From positions 71,623 through 135,622 of the forward strand of contig NZ_WJBI01000005.1 of assembly GCF_020804225.1 (NCBI RefSeq): a stretch of DNA of 64,000 bases, given 5' to 3'. The stretch's first letter is position 1. Each line of letters starts with the position of its first letter. The stretch is from Methanosarcina sp. DH2 (GTDB lineage: Archaea; Halobacteriota; Methanosarcinia; Methanosarcinales; Methanosarcinaceae). This document shows positions 5,691 to 38,367 of this stretch, piece by piece. A program made the translations under genes and the position numbers. The notes under the pieces were generated by a model. It searched no databases and was not told the DNA's origin. It saw only the letters and a program-made list of their open reading frames with translations.

Positions 5691-8684
5691 TTAAAGTACC
5701 TGTCCTTCAAATAATTCATCTGCTCCGTCTTCAAATTCTTCTGGCTCTTCTTCGAGGCCTTCACTCGAGTCCTCTTCGAAATTTTCAAAATCGGCTTCAA
5801 AATCGGCTTCAAAATCTTCCCCGTCCTCAAAAATCGCCTCAACAGGCTGTGCTCCCGAGTCCAGATACGAGTTCCCTCCTCCCGATAGTCTGGGAGCAAG
5901 GAAGTGCCCGGTATAGCTTTCCGGAACCAGGGCAATTTCTTCTGGCGTACCTGTGGCAACAATCTCCCCTCCTGCGTTCCCGCCTTCGGGGCCGAGGTCA
6001 ATTACATGGTCTGCTGACTTGATGACGTCCAGGTTGTGTTCGATGACAACCACGGTGTTTCCTTTTGCGACAAGACCATTGAGAACCGAAATCAATTTTT
6101 TAACGTCATGGAAATGCAGCCCTGTTGTGGGTTCGTCGAGAAGATAAATAGTCTTTCCAGTTCCCTTTTTAGAGAGTTCGCGGGTCAGCTTTATTCTCTG
6201 GGCTTCTCCCCCGGAAAGGGTAGTTGAACTCTGCCCGAGTTTGATGTATCCCAGCCCTACTCGCGTGAGGGTATCAAGCTTGCCTTTGATTGCAGGGACG
6301 TTTTCAAAATGCTCTGCAGCTTCTTCAACTGTCATGTCCAGAACTTCGGAAATTGATTTTCCCCTGTACTTTACCTCGAGGGTTTCCCGGTTATAGCGTG
6401 TGCCTTTACACTCTTCACATTCAATGTAAACATCAGGCAGGAAATTCATTTCGATCTTGATCAGCCCATCTCCCTGGCAGGCTTCACAGCGTCCTCCTTT
6501 TACATTGAAAGAAAAGCGCCCGGTTTTGTAACCCCGGATTTTGGCTTCCTTTGTTTCGGCAAAAACCTGTCTGATTGCATCAAAGACCTTGGTATAAGTC
6601 ACAGGGTTCGAGCGGGGAGTCCTGCCTATGGGGCTCTGGTCGATAACAATTACCTTATCGAGCTCGGAATCAAAAACCAGCTCATCATATTCCCCGGGTG
6701 TTACATTTGATTTGTTGATCTTCTTCATCAGGGCTTTGTAAAGAGTATCGTAGATAAGGGTAGACTTTCCGGAACCCGAAACCCCTGTGATTACTGTGAA
6801 AAGCCCTATGGGAACATTCACGTCGACGTCCTTCAGGTTATTTGCCCTGCAGCCTTTCAGCCGGATGAATGCGTCGCTCTGTCGGCGGAGAGCAGGAGGT
6901 TTTATTTGCTTTTCTCCTGAGAGATACTTGCCTGTCAGAGACTCCGGATTTCTCTCGATTTCTGCGGGTGTCCCTTCAGCTACCACATACCCTCCATGTA
7001 TCCCTGCACCCGGGCCTATATCGAGCACATAATCCGCAGCCCGGATAGTGTCCTCGTCATGCTCTACCACGATAAGAGTGTTCCCCAGGTCCCGTAGGGT
7101 CTGCAGAGTCTGGATAAGCCGTTCGTTATCCCTCTGGTGCAGCCCTATCGAAGGTTCGTCCAGAACATAGAGTACTCCCATGAGATTTGAGCCGATCTGA
7201 GTTGCTAGCCTGATCCTCTGGGCTTCTCCACCCGATAGTGTACCTGCACTGCGGGAAAGGGTCAGGTAACCAAGCCCCACATGCTCAAGGAATCCAAGCC
7301 TGGAACGAATTTCTTTCAAGACTTGTTTTGCGATTTCCCTCTCTTTTCCCGAAAGCGCCATGTTTTCGAAAAACTGGATACACTGGATAATGGAGAGATC
7401 TGTCGTGTCCACAATTGACTTGCCAGCGAGCTTGACTGCAAGAACCTTTTCTTTCAGGCGCCTGCCCTCACATTTAGGACAGGGGTGGACCTGCATGAAT
7501 TTCTCAAGCTCTTTTCGCCGGTATTCGGATTTTGTCTGGCTATAAAGTCTCTCAGACTGCGGAAGAAGCCCTTCCCATGTCCCCCTGTGGGACCACTGGG
7601 CATCCCCGTTTTTCATGCTCATGTTAAAGTGGATGCGTTCATCTGAGCCATATATGAGGGCATTGTATTGCTTTTCCGAAAGAGCTTCAACAGGAGTAAA
7701 GATGTCAAAACCGAAATGCTTTGCAACAGCTGCCAGGTGCTGGCTTCGGTAGCCGTCAAGGTAGTTCCTGTAAAGAGCAACGGCTCCGTCGGCAATGCAC
7801 AGGCTTTTGTCCGGAATTATGAGGTCAGGGTCGAGTTCCATCTTAAACCCGAGCCCGTTACAGGCTTCACATGCTCCGAAGGGGCTGTTGAAAGAGAACA
7901 TCCTGGGCTGAAGTTCCTCAAAAGCCATCCCACAAACAGGACAGGCCATATTCGAAGAATACAGGTGGTCTTTTCCTTCCGAATCCACAGCGATCAGGAG
8001 CCCTTCGGCTTTTTTTAGGGCACTTTCGCAGGCTTCTACAAGCCTTGACCGGTCTTCGGCAGGGTCCAGGCGGTCAATTACCACTTCAATATCATGCTTT
8101 TTGTAGCGGTCAAGGGAGATTTCGTCATCTGTCCTGTGGATTTCCCCGTTTACCCTTACCCGCGTGAAGCCTTCGCTGTTCAAGTCCCTGAAAAGCTGCT
8201 GGTAAGTCCCTTTTTTCTGGCGGACTATGGGTGCGAGGATTGTAACCATTCCTTCACACTCCCTGCTGAGGCTGTCCGCAATCCTTTCCGGAGACTGAGA
8301 CTCTATTTTGATATCATGGATAGGGCAGTAAGGTGTCCCTACTCTTGCAAAGAGCAGCCTGAGGTAGTCATAGATTTCAGTTACAGTCCCTACCGTACTG
8401 CGGGGGTTTTTAGAGGTAGTTTTTTGCTCTATGGATATTGCCGGAGACAGCCCTTCAATGCTGTCCACATCCGGCTTGCTCATAAGCCCGAGGAACTGCC
8501 GCGCATAAGCTGAGAGAGACTCCACGTAACGCCTCTGTCCTTCGGCATAAATCGTGTCAAAAGCCAGGGTGGATTTCCCGGAGCCTGAAACACCTGTGAT
8601 AACAATGAACTTGTCCCGCGGAAGTTCTACGGTAATGTCTTTCAGGTTGTGTTCCCGCGCCCCTTTAACGATGATATTTTTCAT
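5691..8684 (-). CDS. uvrA: UvrABC system protein A (ABC-type damage sensor)
   Basis: Dimeric ABC ATPase that scans DNA and loads UvrB. The 997-residue product shows two ABC halves, each with Walker A (GVSGSGKST near residue 32 and again in the second half) and an LSGGEAQRI signature, plus zinc-binding cysteines ([39 protein letters not shown]). The last 55 or so residues form an unusual acidic tail built from repeats such as [14 protein letters not shown], with no counterpart in standard UvrA. First gene of the leftward uvrA-uvrC-uvrB set; ATG at 8682-8684. The presence of the full bacterial-type system in an archaeon fits ancient acquisition from bacteria. Confidence 0.97.
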
Positions 8685-35429: not shown

Positions 35430-35918
35430 TCAATACTGATATGAGGTACGTATTTCAATCACCTCTTCCCTTGAAATTACTTCAGTACCATCTACCACAG
35501 CATAGACTCTGAAATAGAGGTTACCTGCAGCAGGTGCTACTATACTACCTTCGAACTCCTGAGGACTTATTCCATTCTGTGAAAAACTTCTTGAAGGATA
35601 TGCATCAATGTTCGGACCTGCATGTGTAGAACTGCTTAGAATACGGGTATCACTGATATTACCCGGAGATCCGCCTGATACCTTCCATCGGATATTAAAA
35701 GCATCTCCGCCCCGAACGCTTTCCGGCGCCTCAGTAATTTCAATAGATATTTCTTCAGCTTCTGTACCTGAAGGTGACTCCGCAACTTCAGGTGACTCTG
35801 CAATTTCAGGCGTTTCATTATCTGTGAGCGGCTCGACCTGCCCGTTTTCGGTGCAGCCTGCTGCAAACACCAGTGATATGCAAAAAAGTATAGAGAAAAA
35901 ATGAATCATACCTCTCAT
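35430..35918 (-). CDS. Secreted lipoprotein, Ig-like
   Basis: A 162-residue lipoprotein. The signal ends in FAAGC (lipobox Cys22), then comes an acidic linker with EIAESPEVAESP repeats, then a compact beta-rich domain (about 55-160; GDAFNIRWKVSGGSPGNISD, FRVYAVVDGTEVISREEVIE) that looks Ig-like. It shares the FAAGCTEN/FAAGCAEN lipobox region with the cupredoxin at 31840. ATG at 35916-35918 with a GGGGG tract eight bases upstream. Role unknown; surface binding is a guess. Confidence 0.75.
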   Translation of the reverse strand: MRGMIHFFSILFCISLVFAAGCTENGQVEPLTDNETPEIAESPEVAESPSGTEAEEISIEITEAPESVRGGDAFNIRWKVSGGSPGNISDTRILSSSTHAGPNIDAYPSRSFSQNGISPQEFEGSIVAPAAGNLYFRVYAVVDGTEVISREEVIEIRTSYQY

Positions 35919-36298
35919 TAAACAACCCCCTTACAATAACTTGATAACCATACTTGATAACCCTGTATGCCTGGATTTTAACTGTAGCTCCCTGCTCTAG
36001 ATTTATCTTACCAGTATCAGTTGAAAAAAGGCAAGAAGTAAGAGAAAGAATATTCGAAAAACACTTGCCGATTTTGATCCCCCATTTTGATACCCCAATT
36101 ATAATTTTACTGGAAAATATATAAGGTTGTTTTTGTAAAGAATAAAGGATATCTTCACATTTATTAATTCTAAACGGCCTTTACACTAACTTATTCAAGA
36201 TCCTGAAACTTTAAATATTAAAATAAGCATCCAGGATTAAAATAAAAACATAAGTCGTTGAAAAAACAGAAATCGTTTCCTAAAGCGGTAAAAAACGG
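35919..36298. other. AT-rich intergenic region
   Basis: No gene seen between the divergent lipoprotein and tiny-peptide genes. The right end leads into the probable promoter at 36299. Confidence 0.4.
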
Positions 36299-36312
36299 CA
36301 TTTTTATATACC
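36299..36312 (+). promoter_or_regulatory. TATA box for the tiny membrane peptide genes
   Basis: TTTTTATATACCTG is a good archaeal TATA box, and the expected start 25 bases further would leave a leader of about 45-50 bases before the first peptide gene with its AAAGGAGG site. Inferred from sequence only. Confidence 0.5.
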
Positions 36313-36382
36313 TGCGTCTCACTACTAATTTTACCCACAAAACGGATTTTTATTGATAGTTTTTAAAAGGAGGATAATAATA

Positions 36383-36466
36383 ATGGACTTCAAAGCAATC
36401 CTTGCGATACTTGTATTCTGCACCCTCTACTTTATCTATCATTTCTCATCCGGCGCTATAGCCTGA
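36383..36466 (+). CDS. 27-residue membrane peptide, copy 1
   Basis: Encodes a 27-residue peptide that begins MDFKAILAILVF and ends FSSGAIA. One hydrophobic helix (about residues 5-19) follows a short Asp-Phe-Lys head, and the tail is Tyr/His/Ser-rich, so it should sit in the membrane as a single span. AAAGGAGG lies seven to ten bases upstream of the ATG. It is 22 of 27 residues identical to copy 2, while the DNA differs at more than ten silent third positions, which shows selection on the protein. The family is unknown to me; small membrane peptides of this size often act as subunits or regulators of larger complexes. Confidence 0.85.
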   Translation: MDFKAILAILVFCTLYFIYHFSSGAIA

Positions 36467-36497
36467 GAAATACCGTCGAAAAAGGAGTATAAAGCTT

Positions 36498-36581
36498 ATG
36501 GATTTTAAAGCGATTCTTGCGATACTAGTCTTTGCTGTACTTTACTATATATATCATTATTCAAACGGAGCCATAGCTTGA
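36498..36581 (+). CDS. 27-residue membrane peptide, copy 2
   Basis: Paralog of the peptide gene 31 bases upstream: MDFKAILAILVFAVLYYIYH then YSNGAIA. Same length, same helix and same Asp-Phe-Lys and Gly-Ala-Ile ends. GGAG at 36484-36487 gives a ribosome site ten bases before the ATG. The short spacing suggests one transcript for copies 1 and 2. Differences from copy 1 fall at residues 13, 14, 17, 21 and 23, in the second half of the span and the tail. Confidence 0.85.
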   Translation: MDFKAILAILVFAVLYYIYHYSNGAIA

Positions 36582-37228
36582 AAAAGAGAAAAGCAATACC
36601 GGAATTTCATAAAAAAGCAATTCTTAAAAAGCAATTCTTAAAATTTGAATAATGATAAAGGCAGTTGAGATTATGTAGAAAACTTATTAAATTAGGATAA
36701 GGGTTTCTGCAGATCAAGAGTTATGTTGATTCAAGGATATTTCTATCCCGACTTAAAAAATATTTTAATCTTGTTCTAAAATTCGTGTTATATGAAAATT
36801 CTCCAGTCAACCTTTGAATTTATCTTTTAGTATCTACTGAGCTACATACACTTTTTACTTCAATATATTTCCTGCCGAAACAATAGTTAGAATTTACGAT
36901 TCTAAAATTTATTTGGCACTTCTACTTTATTTGGTACTTCTACTTTATTTGGCACTTCTACTTTATCTGGTACATTTTAGCTGGTACTTCTATTTTATTC
37001 AATTGTACTTTAATTTCTACTTTACTTGACCATGCTTGATATCAAGTTTATTTTGTGAAGTTTCTTTTATTTGACTCTATATTTTAGTTATAATTTTATA
37101 GATATTATATACCGATTTTGTAAATATTATAATATCATCTGAAAACTTATCTTATTACCTGAAAATATTTGAACCAGGGACACAATAAATATAAGATAAA
37201 TCTGGGAAAGAAATAGGGATTAGGGGGA
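36582..37228. other. AT-rich spacer with 18 bp tandem repeats
   Basis: 647 bases between peptide copies 2 and 3 with no other gene. It holds a direct repeat AAAAAGCAATTCTTA near 36613-36640 and the 18 bp array described separately. Confidence 0.5.
36911..36990. repeat. 18 bp tandem repeats
   Basis: ATTTGGCACTTCTACTTT occurs three times in a row (36911, 36929, 36947), followed by two worn copies. No spacers. Confidence 0.8.
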
Positions 37229-37342
37229 TTGACAATAATAAGGGACTTTTTAAAGAAAATCGATTTTAAAGCTGCTCTTGCAATTCTTGTTTTTCTGGTT
37301 CTTTACTACATATACCATTTCTCTGGAGGAGCCATAGATTAA
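37229..37342 (+). CDS. Membrane peptide, copy 3, without ATG
   Basis: Third paralog. From 37259 it reads IDFKAALAILVFLVLYYIYH then FSGGAID and stops at 37340, exactly 27 codons like copies 1 and 2, but the first codon is ATC instead of ATG. The frame stays open upstream to a TTG at 37229 (TIIRDFLKK added), with a GGGGG tract just before it, so the peptide could start there as a 37-residue form. Otherwise translation from ATC, or loss of function, has to be assumed. The coding part differs from copies 1 and 2 mostly at silent sites, so it was under selection until recently. Helical-repeat protein gene follows 130 bases on. Confidence 0.65.
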   Translation: MTIIRDFLKKIDFKAALAILVFLVLYYIYHFSGGAID

Positions 37343-37470: not shown

Positions 37471-38367
37471 ATGCTATCAAGAGAAAAAGATCAAGTAACA
37501 CACCAGGGGCTGGCTTCCGTTGAGGAAGAGTTTGACGAAGGAGTTGGGCAGGCTCTTGCTTCCCTGACAGAAATAGGTACAGTTTACCTCAGTGAAAAAA
37601 AAGAAGTGGAGGCTCAGAGTACGGTAGCTTCCATAAAAGAAATAGGAAAGGCTGCTGCCCTTCAGGGAATGGAGAATGCAGCAGTCAATGCTATCAGGTC
37701 TCTCGAAAGGATGCTCCAGTACTCAATGGAACAGAATATGGAGGGCACGACTGTCAGGGTTCTACTTTCTTTTGGAACCATAGGGAAGACAGCTGCCGAG
37801 CAGCAGCTGGAAACTGTAGCCAAACTTGCTGCGTCAGTTCTTGGGAAAAGCGGAAATACGGCAGCTTTTCTGAACAGGGAAAGAGAAACAATTGCAGTAG
37901 CAATCGGGCTTGGGGAGATTGGAAAAGCGGTTGCAAGGATGAAATTCTCCGATGTCTCTGAAAATACCGCAATATGCGTTTCCTGCCTTGGGGATACCGG
38001 AAAACTGGCAGCTCAGAAAAGCCTTGAAGAGGCTGCAGTAGGAGTAGAGATAATGCTCGAAGAGATAGCTGCAGCAGCCATGCAAGAAAACCTTCAAAGT
38101 GAAGTAAGAAATATTGCATCTTCTATTGAGGAGGTCGGGAAAAGCGCTGAACAGGAAGATATGGAAAGCGCAGTTTTTCAGGCGACTTCTGCCCTCCAGA
38201 CGATCATGAGTAACGCAGGAAATAGATACCTGCACGAGACCTCGATTGCGGCAAAGATCGCCCTTGAATCCTTCAATGAACTTGATATAATAAACGACGA
38301 AACCAGAATAAGAAAAATAGAAGAAATAAGGAAAATGATGAGAGCTTTGTGGGCAGATTCGAAGTAA
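37471..38367 (+). CDS. Helical-repeat (HEAT-like) protein
   Basis: A 298-residue, all-helical protein made of about eight repeats of 32-33 residues with the pattern A-x2-SL-x-EIGK-x-A-x2-Q-x-ME-x-A (for example VASIKEIGKAAALQGMENAA, VAIGLGEIGKAVARMKFSDV, IASSIEEVGKSAEQEDMESA). This is a solenoid suited to binding a protein or peptide. No signal or membrane span, so it is cytoplasmic. AAAAGGAG lies about ten bases before the ATG at 37471. It sits directly downstream of the third membrane peptide gene, and a physical link between the two is a hypothesis. Family not recognised beyond the repeat type. Confidence 0.75.
   Translation: MLSREKDQVTHQGLASVEEEFDEGVGQALASLTEIGTVYLSEKKEVEAQSTVASIKEIGKAAALQGMENAAVNAIRSLERMLQYSMEQNMEGTTVRVLLSFGTIGKTAAEQQLETVAKLAASVLGKSGNTAAFLNRERETIAVAIGLGEIGKAVARMKFSDVSENTAICVSCLGDTGKLAAQKSLEEAAVGVEIMLEEIAAAAMQENLQSEVRNIASSIEEVGKSAEQEDMESAVFQATSALQTIMSNAGNRYLHETSIAAKIALESFNELDIINDETRIRKIEEIRKMMRALWADSK

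Follow-up and report, generated by a model that had tools for sequence, protein, structure and literature searches.

A new family of small single-span membrane peptides in Methanosarcinaceae that carry both Rnf and acetate kinase

Peptide genes and signals at the locus

We analyzed a 64,000-nucleotide stretch of the Methanosarcina sp. DH2 genome (contig NZ_WJBI01000005.1, positions 71,623 to 135,622), referred to below as the window. Three very short genes were identified on its forward strand, together with their signals and a larger neighbouring gene. The features are as follows, with the supporting evidence in brackets.

36293..36314, + strand: promoter element of the copy 1-2 unit, AAACGGCATTTTTATATACCTG, with the TATA box TTTATATA (ortholog conservation)
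36367..36373, + strand: Shine-Dalgarno site of copy 1, AAGGAGG (kept in orthologs)
36383..36466, + strand: copy 1, subfamily A, 27 aa, MDFKAILAILVFCTLYFIYHFSSGAIA (family-profile E 3.7e-19; purifying selection)
36482..36487, + strand: Shine-Dalgarno site of copy 2, AAGGAG (sequence)
36498..36581, + strand: copy 2, subfamily A, 27 aa, MDFKAILAILVFAVLYYIYHYSNGAIA (homology; purifying selection)
37158..37195, + strand: promoter common to copy 3 and the solenoid gene, CCTGAAAATATTTGAACCAGG plus ATAAATATAAG (conservation)
37223..37227, + strand: GGGGG, probable Shine-Dalgarno site of copy 3 (ortholog spacing)
37238..37342, + strand: copy 3, subfamily B, about 34 aa, (M)RDFLKKIDFKAALAILVFLVLYYIYHFSGGAID, with a proposed AUA start (aligned with ATG-started orthologs)
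37471..38367, + strand: gene for a 298-aa alpha-solenoid protein, downstream of copy 3 (AlphaFold2 prediction; gene order)

Copies 1 and 2 both start with ATG, and no gene on the same strand lies immediately downstream of them. In the ortholog alignment, the AAACGGCATTTTTATATACCTG element was nearly invariant in Methanosarcina and in the sister genus g5 and was recognisable in the sister genus g4. It had a single match per genome in the four genomes searched with up to three mismatches. When the whole genome of the window (G000) was searched, the three copies matched one another with E values of 1.5e-12 to 8.4e-9, and no fourth copy was found. The preliminary description of this locus had reported three near-identical frames of exactly 27 residues, the first two with ribosome sites. 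This was confirmed for copies 1 and 2 and for the two sites listed above; the third frame is the end of a peptide of about 34 residues that belongs to a distinct subfamily.

The same description held that copies 1 and 2 agree at 22 of 27 residues with more than ten silent changes, and that the protein sequence had therefore been kept. We found the same 22 identities and counted 12 further codons changed silently. Nei-Gojobori counting between the two copies yielded 15 silent differences in 20.2 sites and 8 replacement differences in 60.8 sites, and so low a number of replacements never arose in 5000 random placements. For all pairs, silent versus replacement differences per site were 0.42 versus 0.11 in the copy 1 set, 0.54 versus 0.10 in the copy 2 set, and 0.51 versus 0.12 in the copy 3 set, a ratio of about four- to five-fold in every subset. 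Since silent changes lie far above replacements, the peptides are translated and selected. They are genuine unannotated small membrane proteins, coding and under purifying selection.

Eight residues, D2, K4, L10, L15, I18, Y19, S22, and G24, were invariant. The hydropathy fits one membrane span, as had been described, with a value of about 2.5 in the best 15-residue window. The peptides thus combine a short frame, one hydrophobic helix, and selection on the protein, the features of single-span small membrane proteins. Their basic N-terminus suggests an N-in topology.

The copies of subfamily A differ in number and state among genomes. One copy was found per g4 genome, and a tandem duplicate is present in g5 and Methanosarcina. 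Copy 1 is intact in all Methanosarcina carriers. In G008 copy 2 has decayed, and in G023 it is cut short. At the G023 locus L037, copy 3 sequence (GCAATTCTCGTTTTTCTGACACTTTACTA) occupies the middle of copy 1, apparently through gene conversion between the two subfamilies. At the g4 locus L107 (G034), the A copy at 7436-7516 has ATA after AAAGGAGG at the normal spacing, and an in-frame ATG lies further upstream.

Other elements were observed in the surrounding sequence. An AT-rich tandem repeat with an 18-base unit (TTTATTTGGCACTTCTAC) occupies window positions 36908-36998, between copy 2 and copy 3. The intergenic stretch of the peptides also holds a lipoprotein-like gene (35430-35918), which is present in some carriers (G007 and G022; two or more in g5) and missing from others. 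The alignment fold suggested a hairpin over the copy 1 ribosome site; it was rejected, as it showed no covariation and was no more stable than shuffled sequences. Rfam gave no match over the gathering score at the peptide locus.

Distribution, loss, and co-occurrence with Rnf and acetate kinase

Searches at the genus, family, order, and class levels identified homologs in 14 of 112 Methanosarcinaceae genomes, at orthologous loci in three genera. The carriers comprise 8 of the 31 Methanosarcina genomes, both g4 genomes searched, and all four g5 genomes. Homologs were absent from 126 further genomes of the class, where the class-level matches up to E 0.001 were the 14 carriers only. Weak extra matches (L004 and L012-L015, E over 0.05) had low identity and no proper start or context, and look like chance. 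The preliminary description had staked its reading on homologs outside this locus and on silent changes outnumbering replacements among them; both were found. Its picture of unannotated, selected membrane peptides stands, and the family is not genus-wide, as 23 Methanosarcina genomes do not have it. One of these is G009, which we take to be M. mazei from a 100% match to the M. mazei PylRS sequence.

Subfamilies A and B are ancient, and their divergence predates that of the three genera. They have been moved apart by a rearrangement in G008, where A is still near a phosphoribosyltransferase gene and B next to the solenoid gene; thus, A and B are separate units. On the tree of the solenoid protein, two changes account for the pattern of carriers and non-carriers: the family was lost once in the M. 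barkeri-type clade and once in M. mazei together with G025. Five non-carriers were examined; all of them are without A, and only some 300-500 bases lie between their phosphoribosyltransferase and solenoid genes. Degenerate B pieces persist beside the conserved solenoid promoter in M. mazei and in several Type I species. Because B is wrecked in non-carriers and dead B copies occur in carriers, B decays where A is lost, and A can persist with a dead B.

We compared the distribution of the peptides with those of CydA and RnfC, and then with that of acetate kinase (AckA). CydA did not match, and a link to cytochrome bd, in which the peptides would act like CydX, was rejected. RnfC exceeded the cut-off in 8 of the 31 Methanosarcina genomes, exactly the eight carriers; this agrees with the published Rnf count of 8 of 31 (PMC12918732). 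All six g4 and g5 carriers also have RnfC, so that it is present in 14 of 14 carriers. Within the family, acetate kinase is limited to g1, g4, g5, g6, and g8. The genomes with both RnfC and AckA are exactly the peptide carriers (14 of 14, versus 0 of the 98 others among 112 family genomes), a co-occurrence that rests on two independent losses only and for which a sign test cannot reach 0.05. The 14 carriers are therefore Rnf-type ("Type II") acetoclasts. Rnf and MmcA distinguish Type II Methanosarcina from those of Type I (PMC12369344), and deletion of mmcA-rnf abolishes growth on acetate (PMC12918732). The genome of the window has a complete mmcA-rnfCDGEAB operon.

About 60 Rnf-bearing genomes of other genera have no peptide; therefore, it is no general Rnf subunit. 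The confinement of the peptides to genomes with both AckA and Rnf, among the 112 searched, suggests a role in that energy metabolism. We tentatively propose that they serve the Rnf/MmcA electron-transport system as accessory or regulatory subunits, the best of the readings considered, in which the link to Rnf is correlative and the partner is putative. Each peptide would span the membrane once, as a helix whose N-terminal D-F-K end is cytoplasmic and whose aromatic YYIYHFSxG end lies at the outer face. Type II acetoclasts use the Rnf/MmcA system instead of H2 cycling; the helix would pack against a membrane subunit and, like CydX and KdpF in their own complexes, tune assembly, stability, or activity. 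There is precedent for small regulators of this kind, as the small proteins MtrI and MtrR bind the Mtr complex in M. mazei (PMC12774963, PMC13370731).

It is also possible, though less probable, that the peptides belong to the Type II lifestyle but have a different partner in the membrane, for example an antiporter, the S-layer, or a transporter. Rnf would then co-occur with them only because the Type I clades dropped a whole gene set. The small number of losses, just two, is consistent with this, and Type I and Type II species differ in H2 use, cell surface, and capsule besides Rnf (PMC12369344); other Type II genes should share the distribution of the peptides. Nor are the peptide genes linked to rnf in the genome: they were absent from the rnf operon in the three operons read, and no promoter motif common to both was found. 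What speaks for Rnf itself is that RnfC gave a perfect match when CydA, the other electron-transport family tried ahead of acetate kinase, gave none, and that the intersection of RnfC and AckA is likewise perfect over 112 genomes.

Methanosarcina conserve energy from acetate in two ways, Rnf-based growth and Ech with H2 cycling, and the route that electrons take from Rnf via MmcA to methanophenazine is a matter of ongoing work. Selected peptides that track Rnf-type acetate metabolism exactly across 112 genomes are genetically testable candidates for missing accessory parts.

Start codon of copy 3 and the solenoid gene

The 27-residue core of copy 3 begins with ATC. No Met precedes it, and it forms part of a longer frame (37229-37342) that extends upstream to TTG at 37229, an alternative start. 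At the start position of the orthologs, ATG is found in G022, G023, and g5, and TTG in g4; the same position is AUA in the window's genome and in G011, AUC in G001, and AUU in G007. Because the alignment with the ATG and TTG of the relatives places it there, the start of copy 3 in the window's genome is probably AUA at 37238, giving about 34 residues. In the orthologs, this position is preceded by a G-rich site at a distance of about 9-11 nt. The N-terminal extension that distinguishes subfamily B is basic, for example MDFLKK or MRDFLKK. The simplest reading is that AUN codons probably serve as starts here. If translated, copy 3 would be a clear case of AUA, AUC, or AUU initiation in an archaeon.

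A different view is that copy 3 died recently in the window's genome and that only copies 1 and 2 are made. In favor of this, its conserved start position is without ATG, GTG, or TTG, and the copy 3 genes of G010 and G008 are dead and frameshifted, respectively. Set against it are substitutions between genomes whose copy 3 has no ATG: G001 and G007 differ by 6 silent changes and 1 replacement (p 0.0016), and G000 and G001 by about 11 silent changes and 6 replacements (p 0.0004). The variants at the start, moreover, are all AUN with a G-rich site 9-11 nt upstream. We consider recent death of copy 3 unlikely; it concerns copy 3 alone and is compatible with the Rnf/MmcA reading of copies 1 and 2. 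Copy 3 of G011 differs from that of G007 by 3 silent and 3 replacement changes, a pair that speaks neither way. In the B copy of G008 (L033, at 7247), the frame is shifted directly after the ATG by one additional T (seven in a row where six are expected), and this may represent either slippage or recent loss.

Copy 3 sits between a promoter and the coding region of the solenoid gene, and this order is identical in all carriers. The promoter is kept in Methanosarcina and g5 genomes, including those that have lost copy 3. The solenoid protein was predicted by AlphaFold2 with a mean pLDDT of 92, as about twelve helices with a repeat every 23 residues. It had no Pfam or NCBIfam match over the cut-off. 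The fold search returned only generic and designed helical repeats, the best solved match being a designed circular tandem repeat (7rdr), and thus gave no pointer to a partner. Several paralogs of the solenoid gene occur per Methanosarcina genome. The gene persists without the peptides in Type I species; hence, it does not depend on them.

With this arrangement, copy 3 could regulate the solenoid gene as an upstream ORF or leader peptide, in which case copies 1 and 2 would be paralogs freed from that role. Both its position behind the promoter in all carriers and its weak start codon in several species would suit such a function. A leader peptide is nevertheless improbable, given that conservation spans the whole peptide and not merely a stalling motif, that Type I species keep the solenoid gene without copy 3, and that copies 1 and 2 have no same-strand gene immediately downstream to regulate.

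In the proposed Rnf/MmcA role, the two promoters, one belonging to A and the other, for B, ahead of the solenoid gene, would provide two dosage settings, and the weak start codon of B would keep its level low. The full combination, in which the peptides are unrecognised Rnf/MmcA subunits or regulators required for Rnf-based acetate growth and copy 3 is translated from AUA, AUC, or AUU in several species, is rather unlikely to hold in all its parts.

Relation to known small proteins

The peptides form a new family of small membrane proteins with one span, whose distribution is unusual and whose copy 3 probably uses a non-canonical start. The preliminary description knew of no described family; no match over the cut-off was obtained in Pfam, NCBIfam, PHROGs, or PADLOC, and none in the PDB by profile. 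The peptide strings had no match in the literature searched. A viral origin was considered and rejected, as viral contigs contained no confirmed homolog and no PHROG scored over chance.

Bacterial type I toxins of the Ldr, Ibs, Hok, and TisB kind are also short hydrophobic helices that occur in tandem copies, and the peptides could be similar toxins held in check by RNA. They resemble those toxins in size, in having one span and tandem copies, and in their apparent gene conversion and sporadic loss. Unlike mobile elements, however, the peptides have been inherited vertically at one locus since before three genera diverged, and they have no viral homolog and no toxin family match in Pfam or PADLOC. 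The flanks where an antisense RNA would start are not conserved, and the apparent hairpin at the ribosome site does not outperform shuffled sequences and lacks covariation. Stable vertical inheritance and the lack of conserved flanks thus make a toxin role highly unlikely.

The peptides could also be a CcmD-like helper of cytochrome c maturation. CcmD is likewise small and single-span and is said to be missing from archaea, and such a helper would suit Type II species, which depend on the c-type cytochrome MmcA. This is hardly credible, as Pfam gave no CcmD match and the ccmABCEF genes of M. acetivorans matured MmcA in M. barkeri Fusaro, a member of a clade without the peptides (PMC9084895).

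Single-span small proteins are known as subunits of cytochrome complexes (PMC10903887). CydX, CcoQ, CcoS, and KdpF resemble the peptides in being very short with one membrane helix, and theirs is the kind of accessory role that we propose. The peptides differ in that they have no Pfam match (none of 30 members matched the CydX, KdpF, or CcmD families), do not lie beside their supposed partner, and occur as three copies in two subfamilies. DltX (PF12459) is also single-span, and 23 of the 30 members gave weak helix matches to it, with a best E of 0.0016. Homology to DltX was rejected: the scores were 17.0 and 17.4 bits versus a curated cut-off of 25, only 15 helix residues align, and the peptide locus has no dlt context.

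MtrI and MtrR offer a further parallel: they too are small, unannotated, and from Methanosarcinales, and the bioenergetic membrane complex that they bind is regulated by them (PMC12774963, PMC13370731). Unlike the peptides, MtrI has 68 residues with a zinc ribbon and MtrR has 49 residues without a membrane span, and both occur in M. mazei, which does not have the peptide family. The sORF_05 protein of M. mazei is another unannotated hydrophobic helix found in membranes (PMC11456600); it lies in a methylamine operon of that species, which has no intact copy of the peptide family. The M. mazei Ribo-seq atlas (PMC11456600) is therefore not expected to contain the peptides. That M. mazei, the best-studied strain for small archaeal proteins, naturally does not carry the family would account for its having been overlooked until now.
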